Shown here piece after piece: positions 4,534 to 29,823 of a stretch of 35,570 bases of DNA (its first letter is position 1; each line of letters starts with the position of its first letter). Where the stretch lies: contig SOJN01000149.1 of assembly GCA_004376575.1 (NCBI GenBank), forward strand, positions 1 through 35,570. Reading direction: 5' to 3'. The position numbers were made by a program, and so were the translations under genes. The stretch is from a candidate division TA06 bacterium (GTDB taxonomy: Bacteria > Hydrothermota > DG-26 > E44-bin18). Below the pieces are notes generated by a model, which worked only from the letters and a program-made list of their open reading frames with translations, was not told the origin of the DNA and made no database searches.

Positions 4534-4654
4534 AGACCTCTCCTTGTCGTGTTTTTGATGAAAGTGTGGAGTTATGAGCAGACTTATCTGCCCCACTCTT
4601 GTCGGCATGAAATTGAATTGCCTGACCCGCCCATATCCGTGCCATCAATACATC

Positions 4655-10107: not shown

Positions 10108-13100
10108 TCAGAGTCCGAGGCCGTATAACACCACGGAGAGATAAAGGTGATGCCAGATATTCCCGCGCGTCCCCTTGAGGGCAAGGCCAAAGTTTCCGAA
10201 ACTCGTATCGAGATACACTCCAGCAGTCGGGCATACCCTGAGTCGGTCTGTGGAGAGAAGAGATTCCCCTGATGGAACGGCGTCTGCAATGTAGAGTGAA
10301 CCTTCCAGGTGAGCATTGACGCGTATCCCCAATAGCGACCTCTCGATAAAGGCCAGCCTTGCTGAGCCTCCGACCTTCCACATCAGTGGTTCGACGAATT
10401 CATCTTTAGCATGGCCAGGGAGGTCTTCGGAATCGTGCAGTGTTAGCTGATAGCTCCCGGTGGGGGTGATTCCGCCAAGGCTGTAGCGCTCGTACCAAGG
10501 AGTATCGTCAGAATACCAGCTGCCAAACGACCTCAGTGCAAGGGTTGTCGTTATTTTGTTTTGAATCCTCCATCTGAATGGTACTCCAACCATTCTCATT
10601 CGGGCTCGGGACCAAGAACTATTTTTCAGGTCAACTTTGGCATCAATGTCTGCTTTCCATCCAGACTCAGGAAACACGATGCGATTCAGATTGTCATACC
10701 GAAGCCACGAAACTCCAGTGACCTGGGTCTGCCATTCTTTCGGCTGGTGTATCATGTGCGTTGTAACTTGAGATACCTCAACGCCTGGAGTGAACGCAAA
10801 ACTCCTATAATAGACAGGAAAAGATAGCCGTCCGCAAATCTCGTAGAATCTCTTGTCGTAGTGTTGTGGTGTGTCCGGCAAACTTGGGAATGTCAACGAC
10901 ATCCAGTGAACATTCACATCAGGTATGGGCAGAAGGGAACGACAGCGTTGGCGACCTGCGCCGAGCCTCTGTCCGCGCGGGAATTCCTCAGCTACTTTCA
11001 GCGGAAAATTCTGCGCGTAGTTTGCATAGAGAGCCCAATCAGAAAGTTTCCTGATACTTCTGTTTCTCAGTTCGCAAAAGAAGTTGAACCCTTCATACAT
11101 TTCCAGAGATAGAGCCGGGAATTCCAGAGTATGAGTGGTTTTCTTCTTCACGGCAATAACCAGCGTATCTTCTTCCAGGCCCTCAACTGCAATAGTCTTG
11201 AGCTGAAATTCCCTGTGTACACGTGCAGTCTTGTCAAGAACGTGCTTCGGACTGAAAGGTTCAGAGAATTCACTCTCCAGGGCTTGCTCCGTTCTTGTAT
11301 CAGTTGTGTCATCGCACACTACCTTTACTCCACGAATAAGTGTCCCCTTGTGAACGTAGACGTAAAGTGTCTCAGGGCTGTTCTTACAGGAACGGAATCT
11401 AACGCTATCCACTCGAGGAGAGGCAAATCCTCGATCTACCAGATTGCTTTCTACCAGTTCTTTTACTTCGCCGAAGTTGAGGACTCTCTCCCTTTTTGCG
11501 CCTACCTGTTCAATCATAGAATTACTTGCTGACCCCGGGACACCTTTTACGATAACTTTCAGAGAATCACGATATTTCTCTTTTCTCTTGAGAAAGAAGG
11601 TGACAGTCCAATCCGAATCCACATTACCTATCTTGGTCTGAACATCCTCATAGGGGCCCAGGCCATAAATTCTTCTCATGGCATCGCAGATATCGATCTT
11701 CTCCACATAACTTCCTTCTTTGAGTCTGATCGCTTTGAGGAGTGTGTCTTGCTTCTCAGTCCCTTTCACAAGAGTAGTCTCATCCTCTACTATAGAGAAT
11801 AGGTCCATGGATGATAGACGACTGATCGGTCGAACCTGTTTTGAAGGTCGCAGGCTGTCTTCCAGAGCGGCCATTTCTCTTTTTATCCGAGGTATTTCCC
11901 TCCAGGCACCGTCATAGCCCGCGCGGATCATGTTCGTAAGGCTCTGTGGAGAAAAATCAAGCCAACCCTCAATCTCCATATCAATCTTGCCGTGGGCAGC
12001 GTCCCAACTGTTCCAGAGATGGTAGTCTCTGGCCAGGGAACGGGTCCGAGCCATCACACCGAATCCTAAAGGCCCGGCAAGTTCTGGCTCTTGAACCGCC
12101 TCTCTAACGCCTCTTCTCTTCGAAGGGTAAACACCAATGACATAGAGAATCTCGTCTTCGTCAGCGATGTTCATCAGTTTGTCTGGGACTCTGCTTGTGT
12201 CAAATGGTATGAATGCGTCTACTGGAAGGTCGTCAAGAATCGCACCGTCTGCATATGGTACGCCTCTAATAATTGTGGGCTCGAAGTAGATTGGAGATGA
12301 ACCGCTAGCACGCGTGGCAGTAGAAATCGTACCCTCCACCATCAGCTCAGATTTTCCCGTATTCAGATTCGTGAGGATGGCACCAAATGGCACAGACAAG
12401 CTGTCAAATCTGAAACCAGCCCGGTAGTCGGCCTCCAGGGATCGCTCAGCGATCTCATCAGTGAGTTTCTGCCCCACTGTAATGCCAAATTCTTGCACAT
12501 AACTGAAAGGAGGCCACCAGTCTCCGGTAGCGTTTAGATCTATTCCGGGCTCTCGGGATTTCTCTCTCAAGCGCACCCACATAGGGAGAGATTGCCTCGA
12601 TGGTTCATCTCCGAGGATATTCTCCCAATCGATATCACGTTTCATGAACGATTCGAGGTCCTCGATGGAGTGGCCACAGGCATACAGTCCCCCCACAACT
12701 GCTCCCATACTCGTGCCGGCAATACCATGGATGGGGATGTTATTCTCCTCGAGGGCTCTTAGAACACCGACATGAGCCGCACCTCGTATGCCGCCGCCGG
12801 CCAATGCTAGGCCCACCTTTACCCTCCTCGGCAATTCATCTACTGGCCTCCACGTTCTGTCAGTAGCGGTGGACTCCTCAGCCCAGGATGAATCCCGATA
12901 TAGATCGGACAAAACCCTTCGCTCCCACAGATATGAATTGGAATCTGATGTTGAAGGATACTTGTCAAACTTCAACCTGAGATGGATTGGATAACTCTCA
13001 TGCTCCAGCGGGATGCTGTTATGCGCGGCGATTGTCAATGTAGTCAAGCAGAGAAGTAGTGCTAAGCCGAGTGTTCGAACCACATTGACAGATCTGCGCC

Positions 13101-13158
13101 CGGGACGCTTTTGCCAGGAAAGCATACGGTAGAGAAAAGCTCTTTCGTTTGTGTTCAT
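10108..13158 (-). CDS. patatin-like phospholipase fused to POTRA and Omp85 outer-membrane barrel (copy 2)
   Basis: A 1016-residue paralogue of the protein at 1501-4533. After an N-terminal hydrophobic stretch (residues about 26-45, a signal peptide with a long basic n-region) comes the shared segment with SYPIHLRLKFDK and YLWERRVL. The patatin domain has oxyanion loop GGGIRG, nucleophile Ser150 in GTSMG and catalytic Asp304 in DGA. POTRA-like modules (about 450-700) lead into the C-terminal Omp85 barrel, with GGITPTGSY in place of the usual RG(Y/F) lid-loop motif, and an end in YGLGL. The ATG at 13158 is used; a second ATG at 13125 in frame would give a shorter n-region. Predicted to be an outer-membrane phospholipase of the PlpD (type Vd) kind, longer than PlpD. 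It has its own promoter (13213-13242). Confidence 0.9.
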   Translation of the reverse strand: MNTNERAFLYRMLSWQKRPGRRSVNVVRTLGLALLLCLTTLTIAAHNSIPLEHESYPIHLRLKFDKYPSTSDSNSYLWERRVLSDLYRDSSWAEESTATDRTWRPVDELPRRVKVGLALAGGGIRGAAHVGVLRALEENNIPIHGIAGTSMGAVVGGLYACGHSIEDLESFMKRDIDWENILGDEPSRQSLPMWVRLREKSREPGIDLNATGDWWPPFSYVQEFGITVGQKLTDEIAERSLEADYRAGFRFDSLSVPFGAILTNLNTGKSELMVEGTISTATRASGSSPIYFEPTIIRGVPYADGAILDDLPVDAFIPFDTSRVPDKLMNIADEDEILYVIGVYPSKRRGVREAVQEPELAGPLGFGVMARTRSLARDYHLWNSWDAAHGKIDMEIEGWLDFSPQSLTNMIRAGYDGAWREIPRIKREMAALEDSLRPSKQVRPISRLSSMDLFSIVEDETTLVKGTEKQDTLLKAIRLKEGSYVEKIDICDAMRRIYGLGPYEDVQTKIGNVDSDWTVTFFLKRKEKYRDSLKVIVKGVPGSASNSMIEQVGAKRERVLNFGEVKELVESNLVDRGFASPRVDSVRFRSCKNSPETLYVYVHKGTLIRGVKVVCDDTTDTRTEQALESEFSEPFSPKHVLDKTARVHREFQLKTIAVEGLEEDTLVIAVKKKTTHTLEFPALSLEMYEGFNFFCELRNRSIRKLSDWALYANYAQNFPLKVAEEFPRGQRLGAGRQRCRSLLPIPDVNVHWMSLTFPSLPDTPQHYDKRFYEICGRLSFPVYYRSFAFTPGVEVSQVTTHMIHQPKEWQTQVTGVSWLRYDNLNRIVFPESGWKADIDAKVDLKNSSWSRARMRMVGVPFRWRIQNKITTTLALRSFGSWYSDDTPWYERYSLGGITPTGSYQLTLHDSEDLPGHAKDEFVEPLMWKVGGSARLAFIERSLLGIRVNAHLEGSLYIADAVPSGESLLSTDRLRVCPTAGVYLDTSFGNFGLALKGTRGNIWHHLYLSVVLYGLGL

Positions 13159-14785: not shown

Positions 14786-17700
14786 TTACGCTTTGCTTTT
14801 CAGGGAGAGTTCGTGTAATTGTTTTATGCGGATGGCAAGCGCTTTGAAAATGTCGCGGGCGATTTCCATGTAATCATCTAACAGATCGTAGAAGACCTCT
14901 TTATCCAGCCTTAGAAGATGTGCATCCTCAGTTACAATTGCAGTGGCGGGACGCGGCTCACCGATGAACAGCTCAGCACCACCTACTGCCTCCTTTTCCG
15001 TCAGCTCCAAATTCGCCTCTTTGTACCGTACCTTGCCACTCACTATCAAATACATTGAATCCACGTAATCACCCTTCGAATAGAGTACCTCCCCTTTCTT
15101 GTAGTTCTTCTCCGTCATGACAGATCCCACAAGCAACAGCTTCTCAGTCGCCACCTCGGCTAAAATATCAACCCCCCTCAAGTAGATCACCTTCTCTATG
15201 CCAGTCATTCCTTTCTCCTTCTTTTTGGCCGCAATGTCTCCCCTACTAATCAGACCCAAAGCGTAGGATGCGGTTTGTCGTATTAGGTTATCCGAGGAAT
15301 CCAGTGCATCTTCTAGTTCCTTGGTGAAGGATGTCAGACGAAGTTCTCCAACAGTATGTATCGCACAGGCTTTGCGCCATCGCCCGCCTTCTGTCATCAA
15401 CGAATGCAATGTTTCGTCTCCTGTCAGGTTCTTAAGTCCGAAAAGCTCTATACCTTTACGAATCTTGCTTTCAACAGAAGTATCTTCAACAATGGGCAAG
15501 ATATACTTCTTGTGACGACCGTGCAATATACTATCCAACAGTTCAAGAGAATTGGCTCTCTTAACCTTGTCCAGGCTCTTGAGACCATGATATATATTCA
15601 AAAGGTCTTTTGCAGGATAGAGTAGCGCTGTTAGTCTTGATATTCGTTCGTAGCATTTCTCCAACTGTTCCTCGAGAGTTACCCACAATAAGCCTGACTC
15701 TTTTTTCTCTCCTAACGAACTCAGGACGATGAACGTATCAAAATACTCCCTGGCTTCGTTTGTAATTGCCTCTGATATTCCTTCCTCATCATAGTCATAG
15801 TCAGGGCTCTTGTCATGTAGCTTGTCCAACGCCTTTATTATCTGAAATCTCAGGCTAAGATCCTTCTCTCTCAGATTCTTGACAAGATTGTCCACTGCCT
15901 CTTGAGTACCTATCGAAAGCATCACCTTGGGTATCTCTGTTCTTATCCCAATGGGTTCTTCCTCATCGCACACAATATCCCGCAGCGTTCCCAGCACCCT
16001 ATCTCCATAATTGGCCAATGCCTCACGAGCAACATTTCTCATCTTCGGGGAAGCCAGTTTCCTAATCAGTAACAACACGTGCTTTCTCTTTTGCAGTCTT
16101 CCCATACTTCTTATTGCCTGTATGGTCACATCCAGGCATTTATCTTCTATGAAATCTGGCAGAAACTCAATGAGTTTCGAGTTTGAGTCCAGATATCCCA
16201 ATCCCTCCACTAGCTCCTCTATCGCTTTGTCTGCGAGCTCGGTTCTGTGGGATAATATTTCTTGTACACATGCTTTTGTCAGTAATTTTCTCTCCTCTTC
16301 TTTTCCATGTTTGGCAAGGTAGGCTACTGCTACGGCCCGCTTCACACAATCCTCCCGGGTCAGCAGAGAGGCCAATCGTTGGTATTGATCGGTCTCGCCG
16401 AGGTGTGCCAAATACCTCAATGCTTTCACCTGAACCTTCGCAGAATCGTCATCGAGTAGCTCCTCCACCTTTGGCCGAAGCTCAACATATTCAGCTCTGT
16501 GTAGCATATCCAGGACTCGTGCTCTTACTTCTTCCGACGGATGGGATAACAGCTTTTCTAAACTCGGTAAGATCTGGCTCAGGTCAGTATCTTGAAGGAG
16601 AGACAGTGCATACGATATCTGCCGCACGTTCCCGGTTTCAAGTGTCTCCAGGACAACTGCAGTCGATGTTGCATCGTTAAGGTTGAGTGTTGTCTCATCA
16701 ATCCTTAAATGCCCTTTGTAGATTGCTTTCCTGAGTGAGTTAACATATTCTCTTTTTATCAAGACCGCGAGAAATATCAGCGCAAAGGCAAACAACATTA
16801 GTATGGCACTTATGGCTCTCAGATTCAGAGAGAGTACAGAGGTGAAGAGGAGTAAAAGCCCTCCACTTATGCCTCTCGTGAATCGATCAACAAACATGTC
16901 TATGAATCCCTTCGTCTTGTTTTTCACCCGAGAAGGGACCGGAAGATACAGGAGCTCAAGTCCGGATCTATTTATTGAATATCTGAAACCACCTTCGCTG
17001 ATCTTTATGAATATGGCTGACGCAAGAATGGGGGCAAAGATCATGGCCCCTGCGCCGACAACGAGACTCACGGGGAGGAACAAAATAGCAGGACCAATAC
17101 CCACTTTTCTCAGAATGGTCGTCGTGAGGAAAAACTGAAGTGTAAAAGCGACAATGTTCAAAGATAGAAAGAACCTTCCGAAAAATGCTGTCAGCGCGTC
17201 CTTGGATTGAAAAGAGCCCTGCACGATTTTGTTAAACTGAAAATCGACAAAATTCGAGCAAATCAATATCAATCCTACTATTCCTACCAGGAGAAGTAGA
17301 TGCCTTGATTTTGCTATCAAGGCGAATATGCCTTCCTCTCCTTCGGTAGTCTCATCTGCGGCTGTGTCTTGCTGAGTCCTTAGAGGCTTTTCTCTAACCA
17401 GGCGCCACACAATCGTGTACACTCCCCATGACATTGCAAGAATAGCTATACAGAAGTAAAGCATATTGTCGGTTCCAAATGTTTTCACCATGAGAGAAGT
17501 TAGTGTTCCTCCAAAGGCTGCTCCTACCACAGCACCGGTTCCTATGAAACCAAACAGACGTTTCCCCTCTCTTGGATTGAAAATATTGATAGCTAGTAAC
17601 CAGAATTGGGAAGTCACCAGGATAGAAAACATGCTTACCCATATATAGAAGACATACGCCATCCAAGACCAGTCGAAGGTAAAAAGCCACCTGAATATGA

Positions 17701-18001
17701 CGAGATTCGAAAGCAACGCAGCAAAGGTCCAGGAGATTAGAACATTAAGGGAAACTCTTCTAAGAAACCTTGAATAAAGGTATGCTATTCCTCCTACGAT
17801 AACAGCAACCAATATCCAGACATAAGGCAGGGAGTCCGCGTCGAACTTTGTCAAGAAGAGCGAATTCCTTACGGGTTTTATGATATAGTATGAGGAGAGG
17901 AGAAAAAAGATGTAAAGGAACATGAGGATGGTTTTTGCATACTCACCCTTCCTTATCTCGAACATTGAACCGAATATTCTTTTTGAAATTGACACCTTCA
18001 C
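14786..18001 (-). CDS. ATP/ADP-translocase-like carrier fused to HEAT repeats and a cyclic-nucleotide-binding domain
   Basis: A 1071-residue inner-membrane protein. Residues about 15-430 form some 12 membrane spans with the signature YIIKPVRNSLFLTKFDA (39-55), as in the nucleotide transporter (NTT/Npt, TLC) family. Residues about 450-900 are helical repeats of the HEAT/armadillo type, with recurring SxxEEVRARVLDML-like units. Residues about 940-1060 form a cNMP-binding domain; its phosphate-binding cassette GGAELFIGEPRPATA keeps the glutamate (1010) and arginine (1017). Canonical NTT carriers exchange ATP for ADP in energy parasites, but fused forms occur in free-living bacteria and their substrate is unknown. 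A GTG start is supported by GGAGG 10 bases upstream. It is the last gene of the operon, 26 bases after the kinase-like lipoprotein gene. Nucleotide binding and transport are inferred, not shown. Confidence 0.85.
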   Translation of the reverse strand: MKVSISKRIFGSMFEIRKGEYAKTILMFLYIFFLLSSYYIIKPVRNSLFLTKFDADSLPYVWILVAVIVGGIAYLYSRFLRRVSLNVLISWTFAALLSNLVIFRWLFTFDWSWMAYVFYIWVSMFSILVTSQFWLLAINIFNPREGKRLFGFIGTGAVVGAAFGGTLTSLMVKTFGTDNMLYFCIAILAMSWGVYTIVWRLVREKPLRTQQDTAADETTEGEEGIFALIAKSRHLLLLVGIVGLILICSNFVDFQFNKIVQGSFQSKDALTAFFGRFFLSLNIVAFTLQFFLTTTILRKVGIGPAILFLPVSLVVGAGAMIFAPILASAIFIKISEGGFRYSINRSGLELLYLPVPSRVKNKTKGFIDMFVDRFTRGISGGLLLLFTSVLSLNLRAISAILMLFAFALIFLAVLIKREYVNSLRKAIYKGHLRIDETTLNLNDATSTAVVLETLETGNVRQISYALSLLQDTDLSQILPSLEKLLSHPSEEVRARVLDMLHRAEYVELRPKVEELLDDDSAKVQVKALRYLAHLGETDQYQRLASLLTREDCVKRAVAVAYLAKHGKEEERKLLTKACVQEILSHRTELADKAIEELVEGLGYLDSNSKLIEFLPDFIEDKCLDVTIQAIRSMGRLQKRKHVLLLIRKLASPKMRNVAREALANYGDRVLGTLRDIVCDEEEPIGIRTEIPKVMLSIGTQEAVDNLVKNLREKDLSLRFQIIKALDKLHDKSPDYDYDEEGISEAITNEAREYFDTFIVLSSLGEKKESGLLWVTLEEQLEKCYERISRLTALLYPAKDLLNIYHGLKSLDKVKRANSLELLDSILHGRHKKYILPIVEDTSVESKIRKGIELFGLKNLTGDETLHSLMTEGGRWRKACAIHTVGELRLTSFTKELEDALDSSDNLIRQTASYALGLISRGDIAAKKKEKGMTGIEKVIYLRGVDILAEVATEKLLLVGSVMTEKNYKKGEVLYSKGDYVDSMYLIVSGKVRYKEANLELTEKEAVGGAELFIGEPRPATAIVTEDAHLLRLDKEVFYDLLDDYMEIARDIFKALAIRIKQLHELSLKSKA

Positions 18002-18027
18002 TTCAGATCATCCTCCATGTCGTGGTC

Positions 18028-19716
18028 TTACCCCTCGTGCTCAACACCAACAATTGAAAAATCTTGCGATTTCTGTTCATAATATAGATGAACTCTAACA
18101 TATTTATTCCGACTCAATTCTTTCTCTCTTTTGCCGTGAATTTCAAGGAAAAAATATCTGTCTTCTCTTTTTGTATCTTTCTCTTTTACCTTTGCTTCAA
18201 CTAAGTCCTTTATTACACCATCCAAAGCAATTGGAGGTTTCGTTAGCAGGTATTCTGTCATCAATTCAGGTTTTCCCTGGAAATTGTGGTGGTAAAGCCT
18301 GCAACGATATACACATTTCTCAGCACTGCAAAAACCTGCTTTCACAGCCAAATCCTCAAAGTGCAGAAAGCTTTTGTCGGTCCCATCCTTTGCAATTGCA
18401 AAATTGTCAAGGGGATTGACCTTGCCATACCAATATCTCACTAGCTTATCTCTTCTTTCCTGCAAGATCCTAATTAGATATTTCTCAGAATCCAAGTTAG
18501 TAAGATGTCCACTTTTTACAACTGCTTCAATGTGTTCATCCGAGAATGACGCAACTACTCTGGCTCCCCAGTATCTATCCAGATTTGTCATATTCTGAAA
18601 AGCTGGATTAGGATAATTTGCCTTCCATCTCGCGGGCTCGAATACTTTTGATTCAAAATAGCCTATTGACGGTAAATCAATAAATTCCAAATCCTCCCAG
18701 GATCTTTTATAGATTCCAAACGTAAACAATGACTTCAAGGTTTCGACAAAATCAATGGTGTATTCGTGTCCACCCTCGAAATGCGGTGGCCTACTCGCAT
18801 TTCCCAAGGTCGAACCGAAATCTATCAAATAGTGTTTGAGGTACTTCCTTCCATTATCTTCCACATACATATCCAGTGTATTTTTCCCCACTATATCAAC
18901 GTGGTTGAGCCATGCGCATATGACGCCGAGACCCCGGAGTTCGCGCCTGTCCTCATGGGGAATCAAGTCCTCGGGATCATCTCTTCTTCTTCCCCTATAT
19001 GAAAATGGACCTTTAGGTTTTCCTGAGAGATACTTGCTTGCCATTACCCTGATTTTAGCGTCATCTCTCCAAGGCACTCTGCTCAAAATCTCATCTAAAT
19101 CGGCCTGCTTCATGAGTCGCTTTACACCTCTTTTATCGACAAACTTCGCATTTTTGCCCACCCTTAACCTATCGGGACAAAACACTGCTATGTAGTTCTC
19201 AGGAGTATTATACCCAGCCGCGTAAAAGAATTTTGTGCAAATCACTTCAGAGGAGCTGGCAAGCTCAGGATGCCCTAGGGGATCGAACTTGATTACATAA
19301 ATATCTCCTCTCGAGTCTTTAACGTGGAACCCGACGGTTACTCCCCGACTCTTTCCTTTAATCACCTCCCACATGCCAGAAGTATCTGGACCATCTCCTT
19401 TGTTTGGACCCTTCACAATCCCTTCAATGCTCAAAGGTGTAGCGGCATTCCTATTTGTAAACCAATCTGAGTCAAGTACTTGCCCAAATGGATCTACATT
19501 CTTACTTTCCTCTTTCCCACTCCTGCAAAAAATCCGTGGTATCTGGGAGAAAATAGAATTATCCAGGAAATCATACTGTTCACTGATTTCACGCTCTGAG
19601 GGTTCAGAAATAGACTCAGCGCCGGAGGGTGAGAGTGTTTTTATGCGATATTCGGATACACTGCTGCATCCTATCATGAAAGCCAACGCGACTATTGCAA
19701 TCGCACTCTTATTCAT
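18028..19716 (-). CDS. lipoprotein with protein-kinase-like catalytic motifs
   Basis: A 562-residue protein with a lipoprotein signal (FMIGC, Cys17). Residues about 115-310 hold the pieces of a kinase-like fold in the right order: a G-rich hairpin (GKSRGVTVGF), VIKFDP with Lys143, SSEVICTKFF with Glu157, NHVDIVGKN with Asp274 and Asn279 (D-x4-N, as in HRDxxxxN), and LIDFGS with Asp299 as the DFG aspartate. The C-terminal 230 residues are not recognised and contain a cysteine group (C-x4-C-x3-C, near 464-473). The ATG overlaps the stop of the upstream Omp85 gene (ATGA), which implies translational coupling. The lipid anchor would place it in the periplasm or at the outer membrane, where ATP is scarce, so it may be a kinase, an AMPylase or a pseudo-enzyme. 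I can give no family name. Confidence 0.8.
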   Translation of the reverse strand: MNKSAIAIVALAFMIGCSSVSEYRIKTLSPSGAESISEPSEREISEQYDFLDNSIFSQIPRIFCRSGKEESKNVDPFGQVLDSDWFTNRNAATPLSIEGIVKGPNKGDGPDTSGMWEVIKGKSRGVTVGFHVKDSRGDIYVIKFDPLGHPELASSSEVICTKFFYAAGYNTPENYIAVFCPDRLRVGKNAKFVDKRGVKRLMKQADLDEILSRVPWRDDAKIRVMASKYLSGKPKGPFSYRGRRRDDPEDLIPHEDRRELRGLGVICAWLNHVDIVGKNTLDMYVEDNGRKYLKHYLIDFGSTLGNASRPPHFEGGHEYTIDFVETLKSLFTFGIYKRSWEDLEFIDLPSIGYFESKVFEPARWKANYPNPAFQNMTNLDRYWGARVVASFSDEHIEAVVKSGHLTNLDSEKYLIRILQERRDKLVRYWYGKVNPLDNFAIAKDGTDKSFLHFEDLAVKAGFCSAEKCVYRCRLYHHNFQGKPELMTEYLLTKPPIALDGVIKDLVEAKVKEKDTKREDRYFFLEIHGKREKELSRNKYVRVHLYYEQKSQDFSIVGVEHEG

Positions 19717-21014
19717 CTGATGAACGGCGGTGAAAGATTCAGCATCGCTCTGATGCCTTCAGGACTTCTCCCCACCTCTAATCTGAGTACAACTGTATTG
19801 GGAGATTTTACACGTATGCCACCACCATATGTCTTGCGCAAAGAGCCGGAATGAATGTCTGAGAAGTCCTCAAACACCTGTCCAATGTCCGCAAAGATGA
19901 CAGCATCCACAATTCCCCTCCATCTCCGCCAAATAGGATACGAATATTCCAGATTCAGACACGCTGCTTGCGTGCCCCAGAACCTATCTTCAGGGTATCC
20001 TCTTAAGCTGGTACCGCCCCCCAGTCTTACCATCGAGAAGAAAGGAATCTCATTGTTCTCTAGGGGATAGGTTCTCTCATACAGCAACCTGACCGAAACC
20101 CTGCGACCTTCCCTAATCATAGTGAAGTAGCGAGTTATCTCAAAAGTATAATCAAGGAAACGAAATGGCTGGCCGCTTACATCTCGTGAGAAGCCGAACG
20201 ATACATACTCAGTACCACCAGAGAATGGATCTCCTGGTTTGTCTCTGGAATCATGCATAACCGAGGCTGCAACAGAGGCCAACTCAGCTCCGTCAAGCCC
20301 GGGCAATTCGCTGTGCACCTCTTCTATCAACGGTGATGCATTTCTTGCTACATAGACACGCCTGTTTTGATAATTCGCACACCCAGTGATTTTGACACTC
20401 TTCCCCAGAAGGGCACCCAACTGGAAGTCTAGAAAAGTCTCTTCACTCCCCCAAAATGTGGTGTCACTTTCGTGCGTCTTAGGACCCAATCCGTAGAAAA
20501 CCTGTCTGTGTTTTATAGCGTACCCAGCTTCTGTGTCAAAAAACAGCCCGTTCTCTGAGGATGTACTCAATGACACTCTATGATCCTGATACAAACTCGT
20601 CGATAGTCCCGCCGATATGGAAGCATCGAGTGGGCTTTTGAAGAGGTTGTCGCGGCTGACGGTAATTCCTCCTCCGATTCCGGAACCTGGTCCAAGCCCT
20701 CCTAGATTGGCTGCAATATCATGCTCACCAAACCACGAAAACAGGTATGCACCCCTGATTATGAGGTTGCGCTTCTCGATGGCTAAAAGGCCCTTCTCCA
20801 ATCCGTAGTCAAGCAAATAGAACGGCGAAAAAAGTACCTTACAGGGAAATGAAATGATTTTGCAGAGCGAAAGGGTGGGTGATTTCTCTTCTGTGACGAC
20901 ATAATAGCTCTGACTGCTGTCCTCATAAGCAGCCTGACTTTGTTGCCCAGATTGCTCCATACCAGAAAGCAAAGATGCAAGACAAAGCCCAGTTATGACT
21001 AATGTCGAGTACAT
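19713..21014 (-). CDS. POTRA-less Omp85/BamA-TamA-family outer-membrane barrel
   Basis: A 433-residue protein: a short signal-like N-terminus (residues 1-20), a linker rich in S and Q, an amphipathic stretch (ISFPCKVLFSPFYLLDYGLE, 54-73), then a barrel to the end. The barrel has the Omp85 lid-loop motif in GGGTSLRGYPEDRF, the following strand-turn block NLEYSYPIWRRWRG and DIGQVF. POTRA domains, expected in BamA or TamA, are absent. It heads a three-gene operon: its TGA overlaps the ATG of the kinase-like lipoprotein, and the carrier-HEAT gene follows. A promoter with a perfect -35 box lies at 21229-21257, leaving a leader of about 210 bases. The role may be transport or display across the outer membrane. 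Confidence 0.85.
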   Translation of the reverse strand: MYSTLVITGLCLASLLSGMEQSGQQSQAAYEDSSQSYYVVTEEKSPTLSLCKIISFPCKVLFSPFYLLDYGLEKGLLAIEKRNLIIRGAYLFSWFGEHDIAANLGGLGPGSGIGGGITVSRDNLFKSPLDASISAGLSTSLYQDHRVSLSTSSENGLFFDTEAGYAIKHRQVFYGLGPKTHESDTTFWGSEETFLDFQLGALLGKSVKITGCANYQNRRVYVARNASPLIEEVHSELPGLDGAELASVAASVMHDSRDKPGDPFSGGTEYVSFGFSRDVSGQPFRFLDYTFEITRYFTMIREGRRVSVRLLYERTYPLENNEIPFFSMVRLGGGTSLRGYPEDRFWGTQAACLNLEYSYPIWRRWRGIVDAVIFADIGQVFEDFSDIHSGSLRKTYGGGIRVKSPNTVVLRLEVGRSPEGIRAMLNLSPPFIR

Positions 21015-21228: not shown

Positions 21229-21257
21229 ATACTATTATACTTGGTGACGCCTGTCAA
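21229..21257 (-). promoter_or_regulatory. promoter of the Omp85-lipoprotein-carrier operon
   Basis: On the minus strand, a perfect TTGACA, 17 bases, then TAGTAT (4 of 6), within an AT-rich run. It is the only strong candidate upstream of the ATG at 21014. Confidence 0.55.
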
Positions 21258-21768: not shown

Positions 21769-22581
21769 CTAGCGCTTTCTCTTGAAGGAGGAATAGAGAA
21801 AAGAGAGGAAGAAAAGGAGACCGGCAAAAAGGACGATTGTGGCTCCGGAAGAGAGGTTCAGATAATAGGAAAGAAACAAGCCCGCGACTGTGGATACTAT
21901 TCCCAGAAGAACCGAATAGACCACCAGGGCTCTATAGTTGTCGGTCAGCTGTCGTGCAGTGGCAGCCGGCAGCACAAGAAGAGCGGACACGAGTATTATC
22001 CCCACGACTTTTATTGCAAGAACAATGGTAATCGCCATGGAGAAAAGGAATAGATAATAGATTGGGCCGACCGGGATGCCACTTACCGAGGCAACTTCTT
22101 CGTCGAAAGAAAGAAAGAGGAGTTCTTTGAACACAGCGGCAAGTATGATGAGTAAGATAGGTGCAGAGACCAAGACCAAAACCAGGTCGGCCTTCGTTAT
22201 AGCCAGTATGTTGCCAAACAGATAGCCGAATAGATCTACGTTGTACTTCTTTGAGATCCCAATGAAGAATATCCCGAGGGCCATTGTTAGTGCAAAGAAG
22301 ATGCCTATGGCAGTGTCCTCATGCAGTTTGCCGCGTCTATTTATGAATCCTATGAGGAGTGCGACCCCTGCTGAAAAGATCACTGCGGAGAGTGTGGGGT
22401 TAATTCCAAGAAAGTAGCCCAGCGAGACCCCGCCGAATGCGGAGTGGGAAATCCCCACTCCAATAAAAGAAAGCCTCTTCAGTACCACGAATGTGGAGAA
22501 AACACCGCACAATACGGCGATGAGTATTCCCGCAGCGAATGCCCTCTGCATAAAGCCCATGCTGAGAGCGTCAATCACCAT
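21769..22581 (-). CDS. znuB: metal (zinc/manganese) ABC transporter permease, ZnuB/TroC-like
   Basis: A 270-residue, highly hydrophobic protein with about eight membrane spans, typical in length for the ABC-3 permease family. Family marks include GVFSTFVVLKRLSFIGVGIS (residues 25-44), SHSAFGGVSLGYFLG with the metal-site histidine region, and VSALLVLPAATARQLT. AGGAGA precedes the ATG, which lies inside the end of the ATPase gene (11-base overlap), so the genes are translationally coupled. It forms the membrane channel of the importer encoded with the two upstream genes. Zinc is the likeliest substrate; manganese or iron cannot be excluded. Confidence 0.9.
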   Translation of the reverse strand: MVIDALSMGFMQRAFAAGILIAVLCGVFSTFVVLKRLSFIGVGISHSAFGGVSLGYFLGINPTLSAVIFSAGVALLIGFINRRGKLHEDTAIGIFFALTMALGIFFIGISKKYNVDLFGYLFGNILAITKADLVLVLVSAPILLIILAAVFKELLFLSFDEEVASVSGIPVGPIYYLFLFSMAITIVLAIKVVGIILVSALLVLPAATARQLTDNYRALVVYSVLLGIVSTVAGLFLSYYLNLSSGATIVLFAGLLFFLSFLYSSFKRKR

Positions 22582-23350
22582 GTTCTCCTACTACGCGATG
22601 CGGAATCCTACCGTGCACCAGGAGCTCAACCTCGCAGCCGTATGCCTCGCGTAAAGATTCGTGGGTAAGAACCTCTTCAGGTTTGCCGTGCAGGTGTATC
22701 CTTTGATTTACGCAGGCGATTTCCTCTGTGTAGTAGGGAATCACTCCAATGTCGTGCGAAACAAGAACGAGGGTCAGACTCAGGTCCCTTTTTAGTGCAC
22801 CAAGTAACTGATAGAATTCATTTTGCGCTCTGGTGTCAACCCCTGTCAACGGCTCATCCAAGAGGAGAATCTTGGGCTCTGAGGAGAGCGCTCTGGCAAT
22901 GAAGACTCGTTGCTGTTGTCCCCCGGACAGATGGCCTATGGGCCGAGCCTTCAGGTCAGACATTCCAACCTGCTTCAGGACCCTCATCACGATTTCTCTG
23001 TCTGTGGCAGATGCCTTTCGGAACGGGCCTATCATTGAGTATCGGCCCATCATTACAACATCGTAGACGGAAACCGGGAAGTCAAGGTCTGCAATCGGAT
23101 TTTGAGGGACATATCCGATTGCGCCCTTTGGCTTGACGTGAGCTGGGGGGTGACCGAGTACGGTCACTTTTCCTTTGACAGGTTTGATGAGCCCAAGAAT
23201 ACACTTGAGAAGTGTGGTCTTGCCCCCGCCATTTGGGCCTATTAAACCCAGGAACGTTCCTTTGGGAATCATGAGGTTTACGCCTTTGAGGACGACAGTA
23301 CCATTCAATGTCACCGAGAGATTTCGTATGTCAATAGCAACATCAATCAT
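22571..23350 (-). CDS. znuC: metal ABC transporter ATP-binding protein, ZnuC-like
   Basis: A 259-residue ATPase of the ABC class. Walker A is GPNGGGKT (38-45), the Q-loop is GYVPQNP (79-85), the ABC signature LSGGQQQR (141-148), Walker B ILLLDEP (161-167) and the switch histidine lies in VSHDIG. The reading frame begins at an ATG that overlaps the stop of the substrate-binding gene by four bases (ATGA). It energises metal import through the permease encoded next. The C-terminus ends in a His-containing tail (VHGRIPHRVVGEHGD) that could bind metal, as an inference only. Confidence 0.92.
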   Translation of the reverse strand: MIDVAIDIRNLSVTLNGTVVLKGVNLMIPKGTFLGLIGPNGGGKTTLLKCILGLIKPVKGKVTVLGHPPAHVKPKGAIGYVPQNPIADLDFPVSVYDVVMMGRYSMIGPFRKASATDREIVMRVLKQVGMSDLKARPIGHLSGGQQQRVFIARALSSEPKILLLDEPLTGVDTRAQNEFYQLLGALKRDLSLTLVLVSHDIGVIPYYTEEIACVNQRIHLHGKPEEVLTHESLREAYGCEVELLVHGRIPHRVVGEHGD

Positions 23351-24258
23351 TCCATCGCCTGTCTCATCACATTCAGGTTGTATCTCATCAAATTAAGATA
23401 GGAGTCTCGGCCGGGGATGCCTTCTCCCCCCAGAGGGTCCAGCATGAGGACTCTGACGTTTGCCTCCTCAGCAATCGCCATGGCAGCCTTTGCGCTCAAT
23501 TGGGGTTCAGAGAATACAGCCTTTATTTCGAATTTGCCGATATCTTCAACGATACGTTTCAACTGTTTTGGTGTTGGCTGTCGGCCAGGGGACTCCTCTA
23601 TGATGCCTACCTCGTTGAGGCCATAAGTCCTCGCGAAGTATGACCAGGCAGGATGAAAAGCAACATACTCTTTTATACCGAAATTGCTGACTGCCTTCTT
23701 TACCTCTGCATGGAGAGAATCGATCAGGGACATATACTCGTTTGCGTTTTTCATATAGAAGTGAGCGTGGCCAGAATCAACCTCTGCGAGAGCAACCGCA
23801 ATCTGATGGGTTATCTTCTTGGCAATGGTGGGATCCAACCAGATATGCGGGTTGCCTTCTTGTCTGCCGACAGAAGAGAGTCTGGTCTCCCGGTGTGCAT
23901 GAGCAACATCTGGAATCATTTGAACTCCCTGGGACGTCCTTACTACCAGCAATGATTCTGAGGCAGCAGCTTTTATTAGCTTTTCCGCCCAGAACTCGAA
24001 GCCAGCACCCACAGTGACGAAGACCCGGACATTGACGAACTTCTTGAACTCCCTGGGAGAAGGTTCAAAGGTGTGAGGACTGGCGCCAGGAGGAATCAGA
24101 ACATACACGTCTGCCATCTCCTTGCCCACATTTCTGGTTATGTCAGCGAGAGGGAAGATGCTGGCTGCAACCTGTATCCGTGCTTCGGGTGCAGGTGTGC
24201 TGCAGCCGGTGAGCAAGGCTAGAAGCGCAAGCACAATTGCTGCGAATGATATCTTCAT
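23347..24258 (-). CDS. znuA: zinc/manganese-binding lipoprotein of ABC importer, ZnuA-like
   Basis: A 303-residue cluster A-I substrate-binding protein with a lipoprotein signal (LLTGC, Cys19). The metal ligands expected for the family are visible: His62 in PHTFEPSP, His138 in NPHIWLDP, His202 in FHPAW and Asp274 in LDPLGG. The His-rich loop between the first two ligands is short (HAHRE, 120-124), as in manganese- or low-histidine zinc-binding members. The ATG at 24258 is chosen because it begins directly with the signal peptide; a TTG at 24297 would add 13 residues. First gene of a three-gene operon with overlapping ends. No Zur-type operator was recognised. Confidence 0.9.
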   Translation of the reverse strand: MKISFAAIVLALLALLTGCSTPAPEARIQVAASIFPLADITRNVGKEMADVYVLIPPGASPHTFEPSPREFKKFVNVRVFVTVGAGFEFWAEKLIKAAASESLLVVRTSQGVQMIPDVAHAHRETRLSSVGRQEGNPHIWLDPTIAKKITHQIAVALAEVDSGHAHFYMKNANEYMSLIDSLHAEVKKAVSNFGIKEYVAFHPAWSYFARTYGLNEVGIIEESPGRQPTPKQLKRIVEDIGKFEIKAVFSEPQLSAKAAMAIAEEANVRVLMLDPLGGEGIPGRDSYLNLMRYNLNVMRQAME

Positions 24259-24304
24259 ATCCAGGGAAAGCGTAGCAGGATACGCACCCCGCGTCAATGC
24301 ACTT

Positions 24305-24422: not shown

Positions 24423-27400
24423 TCAATAGCGGACCTTGAATCCCAAGCCCAGGTTATATCTTCCCTCCTCATCACGGCTACCCACAACGGAAGACCCCTT
24501 CCACAGGTAATACTCTACCTTGTATTCATCTTTTGCTCCTGCAAACAGATCGTGAGAATAAGATACATATACACCTTTGCGAACGTATTTCCCGACAGTG
24601 AGCCGCGCAGACCTTTCTGGCCCGAAGAGCTCGCTTTTGAACCTTATTTCATGTAGACCGGTGGTCCTTTCCAGTTCCCTCATTACAATGTTCTGAAGGA
24701 CAGCTAGGCTGAGATCTCCGCCGGTTTTCGCGATCAGTTCTTGGCCGGACACGTTGCCGTTTGACCCCCTTCCGGTCGTGAAGCCGAGGCTCAGAAGGAG
24801 AAGAAGGTCTGTCTCTGAGAGTTCGGGATCGGGAGAAGAGAGATGGAACTCCGGTTCAAGCATCGTCCCTGCGACAGTGAGAGTGATAATATCTGGCAAG
24901 ACCTTATTGGAGTCTGGATCGAGAGGCTTGAAGGGATCTATTACTATGGCCTCCGCTTCAACGTCGACGGAGGGATTCAGTTCCGGGGCATTTGAAAATC
25001 TGAACTCCCCTGTCTTCACGTCGAAAGGCTGGGTGAACCCCAGATAGTAGAACCTCCCACCAACAATATCCATCACTCCAGAAAGAACCATTGTCCCGGG
25101 TCTCCATCTCACTCTCACATCGGCTCCCATTTCCAGATCCGCGTCTCTGTTGCTCAGGAATATGTTTCTGTCCCCATGGATCGTCAGGTCATATGATGCA
25201 TTGTGTTTGGATGCGGCCAGAGGTATGGCGCGTGTCCTGAACGGGACTGTAAGAGTACTCTGGATGACTTCGACATCACATTCAGTATGTATCATGTCTT
25301 TTCCGCGCCTGACGACCGCATCCGCGTTAACGACTGCAGAGACATCCTTGAAACCTTCAACGAGCGCATTTCTGGCCTTCACATTGAATTCATAGTCCTT
25401 GTAGGAAAGTGCCTCAAAAACGAGATAACCATTGACATCCACTGAACCGCCCTTAGTCTTGCCTGAGACAGACACAACATCGAGCCTTTCACCTTCGAGT
25501 TTCAACTTTCCCACAACATCAGTCGCCGAAGTCAAGGTGGGTCTGAAGAGGACTCTTGGCGAGGAAACATTCATCGTACCCGTGATGTTCGGGTTGTGGG
25601 GCGTTCCCCGTACGTTGATTTTGGCGTCTACTCTACCCTCTGCAACCTCAAACAGATTTCTCAAGGGGAAGAATATCCATACTCCGACGTCGTTGAAATC
25701 AGCGTCCAGTGACATGTCTGACTCTAGGATTCTGGGCCCTTCGCTTCTAATGGCAAGGTTGACCGGAATGTATCCAGACAGAGTTGACTTTCTTTCATTT
25801 CTGTAGATGATGAACTTCTCCGTTTTGAGAAGGTTCTTTGCATAGGAAAGGGAAATTATTGAGCTGTCCACTGATGCCTGCGCGATCGACATGCTTCGCA
25901 GATCGAGCAGGAGGGCCATCTGAGGATCCTCCAAAGTTCCGTTCAACTTGAAGTCGACTGTGAGAAATCCTTCTGCTTGAGGCTTGGATGTCAGCATGGC
26001 AGTCAGGCTGCTGAGCCGTACCGAATCGGCCCTCAGGTTGAATTCAGTATGTCCGTTGTTCAGATTGAGCCCGCCAAAAGACATCTCTGAACCGAGAAAG
26101 TCAAGCGTGCAAGGTCTGATGAAAAGGCCGCTGTCTGAGTAGACGACGCTCAACACACTTGAATTTTTGATTATCTGATCGTTGAGAACCAAAAAAAAGT
26201 TGTCCGCTTCGGCTTCTGCACTACCATCTTTCAGGAAGGCGTTTCCTCTCACGTTGAGAGAGCCCTCATCAGCAGTAGCCCACACCTCGTATTCAAGAGT
26301 CTTCCCTTCCGCAACAAGTTCTATTTTGCCCTGTTCCACTCGGGTGTCATTAAGTGCAACTCCAGCGAAGCTGATGGTCGCGGATCCTTTTGGTTCTCTT
26401 ACCATATCCTGTATGTTCAAGTTTGCGCCGAGATGATCAAACCGCAAACCCTTGAACTCGCCGTCAGCTATCCACGCGGTACCCGAAAGTGATGGGTTGC
26501 TCACCGTTCCTTCCATCCAGAGATAACCGCTTAGACTTCCCTTCAGGTCGTTGATGCCCAGGACCGGGCCGAATGTGGCCACGTCCATGTTTTCCATCTT
26601 GCTGTCGAGTTCAAAACCGGTTCTGGAAAGCCTGCCTGACGAAATGAAACGTCCTCTTTCAAAGGTGACATCAAGTGTGTCCAGCTTGATCGTGCCGGAG
26701 GAGTAGGAAAAATCAGAGATTGCACGGCTGAGTGTTATGCCATCTAAGGAGGTCTGGTTCAGGCGGGCCTTTCCTGTAGCTGTCACATTCTCAAGAGAGT
26801 TGCCGCTGCCGGTTAGATTCAAATTGCCGGTCAAGACAACTCGCCTGTCCAGCAGGAGTCCTGGGTCGAAGCTATCCAGTTGGCAGTCGACAGAAAATAC
26901 GGGGATTGTTGGAGTCATATCCACCAGGATGGAGCCTGTGGCGAACCCTTTTTCTATCTGCCATCTGTTGATTTTCAATCTGCCCTGAGGTCCGTCAAAG
27001 CTGGCAAGTAGGTCAAGCCGTCCAAGGTCTATGCCTCTTATTTGGGCACCAGCAACAAGCATTCTGGCGTTCACGGTTCTGACATCAAGGCTCTCACTGT
27101 AAGTTCCGCTGATCGTCATGTCGCCTTTCAGTCCCAGTTCGGGCTGCAAGATGTCGGCAAATTCCTCGACATTTACTTTCGAGTCGAGGAAAACGATATG
27201 TGTGCCAGTTGAATCCACCTTTCCCGCTACAGCGATTCTAGATCTTCTGGTTCTGAGCTGGAACTCCTTCAATTCGAGGCCCATTTCCCCTAGTGCGGCT
27301 TCACCAAATAGCCGGAACACTCTGAGGCGGCCGTTGACGGTAAACTTGCCATTGTACAGCCTGATTGTGGTTCCGTTTCCCTTCGTGAGAAGCGAGCAGA

Positions 27401-27929
27401 AAAGGTTCGCATCAGACACAGCGATATTTCTGTCCCCTTGAATGGACATGGCCCCATCTAGAACAATCATGTGGGCGATAGAAAAGGGGAATGCGCTCAG
27501 CGGTTTCTTTTGCGGTGTTGGCTTCGCTTCGCTGGCAGAAGGTTCCTTCCTGTTCAGGAGACCGGACAAGTTCCACTTACCGTTTTCCTTTTTCAAAGAC
27601 AGACCCGGGCCATGTATCATAATAGAGGTGAGGCGGCGCCTTACGACCAGTGCAATAGGAGAATAACTGACGGCAAGCGAATCAGCCCATATTATTGGCT
27701 TTTCTTCTCCCGCAGGCGCTATTTCTATTCCCGACAGCTTGATCTCGCCAAGAAGGGTACCCGCTACCCCTCTCACATCAACATTGATTCCTGAGGTCTC
27801 AATCCGTCTGACTAGATGGTTAACCACACGATTGAGCGCCCACTCGGTGCCCAGGATAAGGTGGGCTAGCAGGAATAGCATAGCAAGGGCTATGGTTACT
27901 ACATAGGTTATCTGACGTTTGCGGCTCAT
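24423..27929 (-). CDS. tamB: TamB-like inner-membrane/periplasmic protein (translocation and assembly module)
   Basis: An 1168-residue AsmA/TamB-family protein. One membrane anchor (residues about 9-28) precedes a very long run of beta-strand repeats (e.g. GSLSGYLWMEGTVSNPSLSG and similar 'G-x-L-D-A-x-I-x-V-x-G' units), forming the lipid-conducting groove known from TamB. The last 300 residues carry the TamB C-terminal domain (MDIVGGRFYYLGFTQPFDV, then PELSETDLLLLLSLG and GKYVRKGVYVSYSHDL). It starts 27 bases after the BamA/TamA-like gene, so the pair is an operon like tamA-tamB. Expected role: phospholipid passage between inner and outer membrane and/or outer-membrane protein insertion. Length is close to the 1259 residues of the E. 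coli protein. Confidence 0.9.
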   Translation of the reverse strand: MSRKRQITYVVTIALAMLFLLAHLILGTEWALNRVVNHLVRRIETSGINVDVRGVAGTLLGEIKLSGIEIAPAGEEKPIIWADSLAVSYSPIALVVRRRLTSIMIHGPGLSLKKENGKWNLSGLLNRKEPSASEAKPTPQKKPLSAFPFSIAHMIVLDGAMSIQGDRNIAVSDANLFCSLLTKGNGTTIRLYNGKFTVNGRLRVFRLFGEAALGEMGLELKEFQLRTRRSRIAVAGKVDSTGTHIVFLDSKVNVEEFADILQPELGLKGDMTISGTYSESLDVRTVNARMLVAGAQIRGIDLGRLDLLASFDGPQGRLKINRWQIEKGFATGSILVDMTPTIPVFSVDCQLDSFDPGLLLDRRVVLTGNLNLTGSGNSLENVTATGKARLNQTSLDGITLSRAISDFSYSSGTIKLDTLDVTFERGRFISSGRLSRTGFELDSKMENMDVATFGPVLGINDLKGSLSGYLWMEGTVSNPSLSGTAWIADGEFKGLRFDHLGANLNIQDMVREPKGSATISFAGVALNDTRVEQGKIELVAEGKTLEYEVWATADEGSLNVRGNAFLKDGSAEAEADNFFLVLNDQIIKNSSVLSVVYSDSGLFIRPCTLDFLGSEMSFGGLNLNNGHTEFNLRADSVRLSSLTAMLTSKPQAEGFLTVDFKLNGTLEDPQMALLLDLRSMSIAQASVDSSIISLSYAKNLLKTEKFIIYRNERKSTLSGYIPVNLAIRSEGPRILESDMSLDADFNDVGVWIFFPLRNLFEVAEGRVDAKINVRGTPHNPNITGTMNVSSPRVLFRPTLTSATDVVGKLKLEGERLDVVSVSGKTKGGSVDVNGYLVFEALSYKDYEFNVKARNALVEGFKDVSAVVNADAVVRRGKDMIHTECDVEVIQSTLTVPFRTRAIPLAASKHNASYDLTIHGDRNIFLSNRDADLEMGADVRVRWRPGTMVLSGVMDIVGGRFYYLGFTQPFDVKTGEFRFSNAPELNPSVDVEAEAIVIDPFKPLDPDSNKVLPDIITLTVAGTMLEPEFHLSSPDPELSETDLLLLLSLGFTTGRGSNGNVSGQELIAKTGGDLSLAVLQNIVMRELERTTGLHEIRFKSELFGPERSARLTVGKYVRKGVYVSYSHDLFAGAKDEYKVEYYLWKGSSVVGSRDEEGRYNLGLGFKVRY

Positions 27930-27956
27930 CGTCTTGAAGGGGTCTTCATTAAGAAC

Positions 27957-29765: not shown

Positions 29766-29823
29766 ATGTTTAGCCCTATTGATTATAGTGTTGCATTCAT
29801 ACAATGTCAACATCAGAGCACCT

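Follow-up and report, generated by a model that had tools for sequence, protein, structure and literature searches.

The window, a stretch of 35,570 nucleotides from contig SOJN01000149.1 of a candidate division TA06 bacterium, carries an operon of three genes on its minus strand that encode, in this order, an Omp85-type barrel, a kinase-like lipoprotein and a carrier combining NTT, HEAT and cNBD domains. The locus raises the question whether these genes belong together and, if so, what a kinase-like lipoprotein would do between a barrel and a nucleotide carrier.

Operon layout and recurrence across phyla

The genes and the sites that bear on their expression are located as follows.

19713..21014, minus strand: barrel of the Omp85 superfamily without POTRA domain, 433 aa (Pfam Omp85, E = 4.8e-13)
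18028..19716, minus strand: predicted exported atypical kinase, a lipoprotein of 562 aa (AlphaFold2, Foldseek, 63-row alignment)
14786..18001, minus strand: carrier of 1071 aa with GTG start (Pfam TLC/NTT 2.5e-14, HEAT_2 5.5e-22, cNMP_binding 2.3e-16)
19713..19716, minus strand: ATGA shared by the stop codon of the barrel gene and the start codon of the lipoprotein gene (sequence)
21229..21257, minus strand: candidate promoter-like site TTGACA-17 nt-TAGTAT, ~215 nt ahead of the barrel gene

As the first-pass annotation had described, the barrel and lipoprotein genes overlap as ATGA (19716-19713), and the GTG start of the carrier, preceded by GGAGG, follows the lipoprotein stop after 26 bases. 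A single promoter with a perfect -35 box had also been placed ahead of all three genes; the TTGACA site is indeed present at 21257, but a scan returned 16 promoter-like sites versus 11.5 +/- 3.2 expected by chance, and because their number is at chance level the promoter upstream of the barrel is unproven.

Homologous loci were selected by the kinase alone, which yielded 79 loci in 13 named phyla. The genome scan used an alignment of the window protein and four synthetic variants of its kinase region, written to steer the search patterns; every match was confirmed by tblastn with the authentic window protein, and the synthetic variants were excluded from all later alignments, trees and counts. 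A single-protein search with the window kinase revealed no homologues in plasmids, phages, viral contigs or the window's own phylum, and a search of viral contigs by degenerate nucleotide pattern produced a single match, which was unrelated.

Computation showed the grouping to be conserved. The barrel gene was located directly upstream of the kinase gene on the same strand at 70 of the 74 testable loci, the four exceptions including one locus cut by masked sequence beyond the C-terminal end of the barrel (L004), one with the barrel downstream (L055) and one at a contig edge (L045). Long open frames at two loci (L048 and L070) had raised the suspicion of a barrel-kinase fusion, which was discarded since the reading frames differ. 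Barrel and kinase distances were closely correlated (Mantel r = 0.88, n = 74), also with the NTT tree partialled out (r = 0.87, 24 loci), and the NTT and kinase trees agreed moderately (r = 0.47 to 0.48). An NTT carrier was encoded within 7 kb of the kinase at 34 of the 79 loci and at 16 of the 32 with full flanks, and approximately half of the kinase loci were without a nearby NTT. Counting frames, 46 NTTs were found in the 644 kb nearer than 5 kb versus 3 in the 451 kb farther off, a ten-fold density near the kinase.

The exported kinase-like lipoprotein and its barrel partner

Four features of the lipoprotein bear on its export and its catalytic potential.

19666..19716, minus strand: lipoprotein signal peptide with lipobox LAFMIGC-S (C17, Ser at +2; sequence)
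19288..19290, minus strand: K143, the N-lobe Lys, invariant in the 63-sequence alignment
18880..18897, minus strand: D274-x4-N279, the catalytic loop, invariant in the same alignment
18814..18822, minus strand: D299-F300-G301, the metal-binding DFG, likewise invariant

The AlphaFold2 model of the lipoprotein (pLDDT 92.5, pTM 0.92) matched by Foldseek the kinases Fam20C (4kqa, E = 1.9e-5) and CtkA (3akl, E = 4.1e-5), both with a probability of 1.00, at modest TM-scores (0.21-0.35 overall for Fam20C; 0.56 over the target for CtkA). The catalytic set K143, D274, N279 and D299 was unchanged in 63/63 aligned homologues. By sequence, the family was without a match in Pfam, NCBIfam, PADLOC and PDB sequences, apart from weak Pfam HipA_2 and HipA_C matches of a few of its 63 members and none for the window protein; the best member reached 16.9 bits against the HipA family proper, below the cut-off of 27. 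The description of this lipoprotein as kinase-like, invisible to Pfam, is supported by the predicted structure, which points to a new family with the HipA/CtkA/Fam20 fold and intact catalytic residues. The spacing of D-x4-N and the following DF motif is common to this family and to CtkA and HipA; HipA, however, is cytoplasmic and one half of a toxin-antitoxin pair, whereas the family described here has signal peptides, an extra C-terminal domain and a barrel partner. A lipobox-like site was present in 32 of the 63 homologues, one of them (L067) doubtful, with Asp at +2 in none, and a plain signal peptide replaces the lipobox in many acidobacterial homologues.

The barrel protein consists of an N-terminal signal peptide, a helical stretch (residues 47-93) and 16 predicted strands from residue 100 on; its AlphaFold2 model (pLDDT 85.1) found its best Foldseek matches in the barrels of TamA and BamA (E = 1e-12). 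It resembles these proteins in the 16-strand barrel and the LRG[FY] family motif, but it differs from them in that a helical N-terminal stretch takes the place of the POTRA domain, for which there was no Pfam match and ahead of strand 1 only helices in the model, and in that it is nearly always paired with the kinase. Members of the Omp85 superfamily without POTRA domains exist.

The NTT-HEAT-cNBD carrier and its co-occurrence with the kinase

Two domains of the carrier bear on its substrate and its suggested regulation.

16712..18001, minus strand: NTT membrane domain, residues 1-430 (Pfam, profile search)
14873..15109, minus strand: cNBD, residues 965-1043 (Pfam; ribose Glu replaced, Arg kept)

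The carrier matched the PF03219 (TLC/NTT) profile with 53.4 bits (curated cut-off 21), and a profile of the family's NTT domain matched the solved ADP/ATP carriers 9j3n (7.8e-37) and 9j3j (4.2e-32). Apart from one marginal match, AtNTT1 and chlamydial NTT1 were the sole solved relatives of the membrane domain; both are without the HEAT and cNBD domains appended here. Membership in the NTT superfamily stands, yet judging from the residues ATP/ADP exchange would not follow from it. Classical exchange was assessed by AtNTT1 residues K155 and K527 for binding, both required for ADP and ATP (PMC3306366), and E245 for translocation. At these positions the window carrier has V61, R376 and S123, respectively, and all three were changed rather than conserved in the 21 NTT-HEAT carriers of the loci, with V or A in place of K155 and mixed residues in place of K527; a D/E at the E385 position and the basic pair at 133/136 were kept. 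Since the binding positions are altered, the substrate of the module carrier may not be ATP/ADP.

The first-pass annotation had further suggested that a cyclic nucleotide gates or is sensed by the carrier. The cNBD matches its Pfam profile with 60 bits and the Arg of its phosphate-binding cassette is mostly kept in module members. The suggestion is not supported, however: the ribose-binding Glu position is T, V or G in the window and in most module members, and the cNBD is encoded by its own gene in many loci. NTT-HEAT-cNBD fusion carriers were described in 2017 by Major, Embley and Williams (PMC5381601), whose passages on these proteins give a three-domain architecture identical to that of the window carrier, record a separate cNBD gene directly behind NTT-HEAT, leave the function of the carriers open, and link them to no Omp85 barrel, exported kinase or phosphatase. 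PADLOC gave no support for a role in defence: it matched nothing but the HEAT and cNBD parts of the carrier, in a generic way.

Kinase and carrier also co-occurred genome by genome. PF03219 was present in 48/49 kinase-bearing genomes versus 0/14 control genomes. Among 98 genomes of the phylum of G149, 26 had both genes, 3 the kinase only, 1 the NTT only and 68 neither (p = 2.5e-19), and in 247 genomes of Acidobacteriota the NTT was found in 36 of 41 kinase genomes versus 40 of 206 others (p = 6.6e-17), these Fisher p-values being inflated by kinship among genomes. In the former phylum the association reached significance in all three strata of genome size and spanned 17 separate runs of the genome listing; for generic metallophosphoesterases of the same genomes it was absent (p = 0.75). 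When a more sensitive NTT profile was applied, the carrier was recovered in three apparent exceptions, and six kinase genomes were without a recognisable NTT (G147, G262, G264, G308, G311 and G349). In the window's own phylum both kinase and carrier are missing from 146 other genomes, and the window's genome has the two side by side. The first-pass interpretation is partly supported: that the three genes form a module is upheld across phyla by their recurrence, by the agreeing barrel and kinase trees, and by kinase-NTT co-occurrence far above chance.

A proposed envelope phosphorylation module and its alternatives

We give even chances to the reading that the operon represents an envelope phosphorylation module of wide occurrence, which would operate as follows. 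The NTT-HEAT-cNBD carrier would move nucleotide across the inner membrane, in the simplest case exporting ATP in exchange for ADP or AMP; the exported kinase, lipidated here with outer-membrane sorting signals, would use this nucleotide to phosphorylate a periplasmic or cell-surface target; the dedicated POTRA-less barrel, as fixed partner of the kinase, may serve as its anchor, its passage through the outer membrane or its target; and in some lineages the product could be processed, or its formation undone, by an exported metallophosphoesterase encoded beside the kinase. We infer that the protein has kinase activity with ATP as its donor, and likewise the direction of the carrier and the role of the barrel. 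The full reading, a true extracytoplasmic system of many phyla in which the NTT exports ATP to a Fam20-like lipoprotein kinase on its own Omp85 barrel for envelope or surface phosphorylation, with partner-lipoprotein dephosphorylation in some lineages, we hold tentatively, at somewhat less than even chances. The periplasm is held to be free of ATP, which counts against the proposed module, as do the altered K155 and K527 positions of the carriers, the NTTs in genomes without the kinase, the six kinase genomes without a recognisable NTT and the loci that have none nearby.

Nucleotide scavenging, whereby the barrel admits nucleotides or pieces of nucleic acid, exported enzymes process them, the NTT imports the products and the kinase-fold protein is accessory, is unlikely but would accord with the nucleotide import by NTTs of intracellular parasites (PMC5381601) and with the PAP2 phosphatases and metallophosphoesterases that recur near the kinase, as well as with a beta-CASP nuclease-like gene next to the NTT at three loci. 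It leaves the invariant catalytic set of the exported kinase unexplained, and the barrel is of the Omp85 type, which handles protein and lipid, and not a known nucleotide porin. The kinase-barrel pair, moreover, persists where the phosphatase is absent: an exported metallophosphoesterase with its metal-binding motifs kept adjoins the kinase in some lineages, but a dedicated one occurs in only 4/29 kinase genomes of one phylum and was hence rejected as a core part and regarded as accessory, and the window's genome has only a generic match.

The kinase fold might instead serve another nucleotide-dependent transfer (AMPylation, glutamylation or NAD-based chemistry), with the NTT supplying the matching nucleotide. 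Kinase-fold enzymes with such alternative transfers are known in SelO and SidJ, and the altered ATP/ADP-binding sites of the NTT make another substrate possible; we nevertheless consider this quite improbable, as the invariant K143, D274, N279 and D299-F-G constitute the standard set for phosphotransfer.

It is more doubtful still that kinase and barrel alone form a real unit and that NTTs go along with them merely because similar organisms carry both, no nucleotide being exchanged between them. The moderate agreement of the NTT and kinase trees, the half of the loci that have no nearby NTT and the occurrence of NTTs without kinase (40 Acidobacteriota genomes) would fit this explanation, but NTT adjacency at 34/79 loci with its ten-fold density, and the tracking in 98 genomes across separate runs and size strata that generic metallophosphoesterases do not share, argue against it. 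A local accident has practically no likelihood left: although no other genome of the window's own phylum has the grouping, the comparison of co-occurrence and gene trees that had been proposed as a check found the grouping to recur in other phyla.

The first-pass annotation knew of no described system with this set. In the open-access literature searched (periplasmic kinases, periplasmic ATP, Fam20/CotH/HipA, NTT operons), neither the assembly nor the kinase family itself was found described, nor any biochemistry of a module member. The component families are known, and the NTT-HEAT-cNBD architecture is already present in the 2017 account of these carriers. Were the phosphorylation module real, it would overturn the rule that there is no ATP-driven phosphorylation in the Gram-negative periplasm and would assign a function to the NTT-HEAT carriers that free-living bacteria possess and that have lacked an explanation since 2017. 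Its small size and known catalytic residues make the module directly testable.

Fam20C, the best Foldseek match of the bacterial kinase, is a casein kinase of the Golgi that likewise acts outside the cytosol and relies on nucleotide delivered by a carrier. It differs in being eukaryotic and without a barrel partner, and no sequence similarity between the two was detected; if real, the module would be the bacterial analogue of an arrangement in the Golgi, in which Fam20 kinases receive their nucleotide through a carrier.

Gene layout and predicted products of the operon

The three-gene layout proposed in the first-pass annotation was borne out by the sequence. All three genes lie on the minus strand, an ATGA is common to the barrel stop and the lipoprotein start, and the carrier gene begins 26 bases downstream of the lipoprotein gene with a GTG preceded by GGAGG:

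21014-19713, minus: Omp85 barrel
19716-18028, minus: lipoprotein with kinase-type fold (hereafter kinase)
18001-14786, minus: carrier (NTT-HEAT-cNBD), GTG start

The promoter claimed for the operon fared less well: a TTGACA is present approximately 215 nt upstream, but the second box matches at only 4/6 positions, and such promoter-like sites occur around the operon at chance level.

The lipoprotein gave no worthwhile sequence match in Pfam, NCBIfam, PADLOC or PDB. Its AlphaFold2 model (pLDDT 92.5, pTM 0.92) retrieved as top Foldseek matches the Golgi casein kinase Fam20C (E 1.9e-5), CtkA (E 4.1e-5; TM 0.56 on target) and other Fam20 kinases, and residues K143, D274, N279 and D299-F300-G301 are invariant in an alignment of 63 homologues, in support of the label "kinase-like". 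A few of the 63 members show weak HipA_2 and HipA_C matches, consistent with a kinase fold; by score, the family belongs to none of the HipA families of Pfam. The window protein carries a lipobox with Ser at +2; a lipobox-like site was found in 32/63 homologues (one doubtful), none with Asp at +2, and many acidobacterial homologues have a plain signal peptide. Judged by these signals the lipoprotein is exported, and it is best described as an atypical, exported kinase, predicted to be catalytically complete. Many Acidobacteriota genomes also encode short, weak relatives (330-450 aa, E 1e-4 to 1e-8), with matches limited to the two kinase lobes; these probably form a separate HipA-like family.

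The barrel is an Omp85 member by profile (Pfam Omp85, 4.8e-13) and by predicted fold (pLDDT 85, 16 strands), and structurally it comes closest to the barrels of TamA and BamA; a helical stretch without POTRA occupies its N-terminus.

Association of the kinase with barrel and carrier genes

Homologue loci were gathered with the kinase alone as query. Scanning of 84,980 species genomes yielded 79 distinct loci in Acidobacteriota, Zixibacteria, Latescibacterota, Calditrichota, Gemmatimonadota, Poribacteria, Krumholzibacteria, six further phyla (Eisenbacteria, Myxococcota, Bdellovibrionota, Omnitrophota, Bacteroidota, LCP-89) and unplaced MAGs. The grouping recurs among them. A same-strand barrel lies directly upstream of the kinase in 70 of the 74 loci that extend 0.9 kb or more upstream, the four exceptions being an assembly gap, a barrel located downstream, a contig edge and one locus (L071) with none nearby. 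The gap adjoins the closest kinase homologue, where the C-terminal 37 residues of a barrel run into a masked or N stretch (L004:9663-9917). The gene trees, whose comparison had been proposed, agree for barrel and kinase (distances r = 0.88, 74 loci; r = 0.87, 24 loci, once correlation with the NTT tree is removed). Tandem kinase duplications occur at L014:4878-11028, L037:8179-11494 and L041:8272-11500, that of L014 taking in the whole barrel-kinase pair.

NTT carriers were found within 7 kb of the kinase in 34/79 loci, and in 16 of the 32 with full flanks, often as one single-domain carrier plus one NTT-HEAT carrier with a 145-residue cNBD gene. Within 5 kb of the kinase, 46 NTT frames were counted in 644 kb, versus 3 in 451 kb beyond, and the NTT family PF03219 is present in 48/49 kinase genomes versus 0/14 control genomes. 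In one phylum of 98 surveyed genomes, 26 have kinase and NTT, three kinase only, one NTT only and 68 neither (Fisher p 2.5e-19, inflated by kinship); in 16 of the 26 with both, the coordinates put kinase and NTT no more than 10 kb apart. This association persists in three genome-size strata. In the genome listing, whose order is assumed to track kinship, the kinase-bearing genomes fall into 17 separate runs, and the association spans these as well. Generic metallophosphoesterases, used as control in the same 98 genomes, showed no association (p 0.75). Among 247 Acidobacteriota genomes, NTT occurs in 36/41 with the kinase versus 40/206 others (p 6.6e-17, likewise inflated by kinship). A sharper NTT profile recovered the carrier in three apparent exceptions. 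The size of the kinase-NTT effect does not depend on kinship-inflated p-values alone. Both genes are absent from 146 other genomes of the window's own phylum, unlike the window genome, in which they are adjacent, as if the set had arrived jointly.

The carrier and a proposed working of the module

By Pfam the carrier comprises TLC/NTT, HEAT_2 and cNMP_binding domains, and its profile match places it among the NTT carriers. The three-domain architecture is not new: Major, Embley and Williams (PMC5381601) describe NTT-HEAT and NTT-HEAT-cNBD fusions, as well as a separate cNBD gene immediately after NTT-HEAT, and leave the function of the fusions open. A profile of the module NTT domains matches solved ADP/ATP carriers (E 7.8e-37 and 4.2e-32). 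In the ADP/ATP carrier AtNTT1, mutation of K155, E245 or K527 impairs nucleotide binding or transport (PMC3306366). None of these positions is conserved in the aligned module carriers, AtNTT1 numbering being inferred via the offset that places all four residues compared on K, E, E and K. At the fourth, which we take to be E385, D or E is retained, as is a basic pair upstream. Given the profile match and these retained residues, but with K155, E245 and K527 changed, a nucleotide-type substrate is likely, while ATP/ADP exchange is not established. The cNBD weakens the case for the proposed control by a cyclic nucleotide: read against a consensus string set down for orientation, the window carrier and most module members have no Glu for ribose binding where it would canonically stand, although the Arg is mostly retained.

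The core of the suggested trans-envelope module stands, namely a recurrent grouping in which a barrel and an exported kinase are tied to nucleotide transport; its cyclic-nucleotide part is unsupported and its mechanism unproven. As the presence of the exported kinase tracks that of a nucleotide carrier, the simplest account is that the carrier would supply nucleotide to the kinase, with the barrel as fixed partner of the kinase, whether to anchor it, to gate its export or to be its target. The kinase activity is inferred, as are the nucleotide donor, the target and the direction in which the carrier works. In arrangement the module would work like the Golgi Fam20 kinases, the likeness of the kinase to Fam20 being one of fold only, with no membership implied. 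The nearest bacterial precedent found, Lani_1194 of Legionella and its NoeA relatives, is a kinase-methyltransferase adjoining a phosphatase-fold protein and thought to decorate secreted factors, but differs in having neither barrel nor carrier (PMC9758233). Each part of the module is of a known kind. In the open-access literature searched we found no description of a kinase-barrel-carrier module, nor a known kind of system in which a nucleotide carrier is combined with an exported kinase that has an Omp85 barrel of its own.

Other neighbours of the kinase and further window genes

A calcineurin-like metallophosphoesterase with its own lipobox or signal peptide and retained metal-binding motifs lies beside the kinase in about 22 loci. 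It is accessory, since the dedicated form occurs in just 4/29 kinase genomes of one phylum, adjoining the kinase in all four; the window genome has a generic relative only. PAP2 phosphatases and response regulators are further recurrent neighbours. In Zixibacteria, the kinase and PAP2 phosphatase genes flank an exported family of approximately 423-450 aa that has no match in Pfam (L034:11608-12879, L035:6586-7938, L038:11608-12960). In Gemmatimonadota, the kinase gene is immediately followed by a pair of genes for bacterial PH domains (bPH_2; L062:11804-13814, L081:11607-13911), and in three loci a beta-CASP metallo-hydrolase (RNase-like) gene adjoins a divergent NTT gene (L060:7115-8536, L068:2185-3642, L076:7120-8619).

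Elsewhere in the window we noted:

1501-4608 and 10108-13158, minus: two patatin-POTRA-Omp85 proteins near the operon, approximately 1000 aa each
21769-24297: ZnuABC-like zinc uptake genes, adjoining the next pair
24423-29813, minus: adjoining TamB-like and POTRA-Omp85 (TamA/BamA-like) genes
30278-31399, plus: protein with a Por_Secre_tail-like C-terminus

The two patatin proteins resemble PlpD-type type V secretion in plan, a patatin phospholipase with its own barrel, and the Por_Secre_tail-like C-terminus hints at type IX secretion in the window genome.
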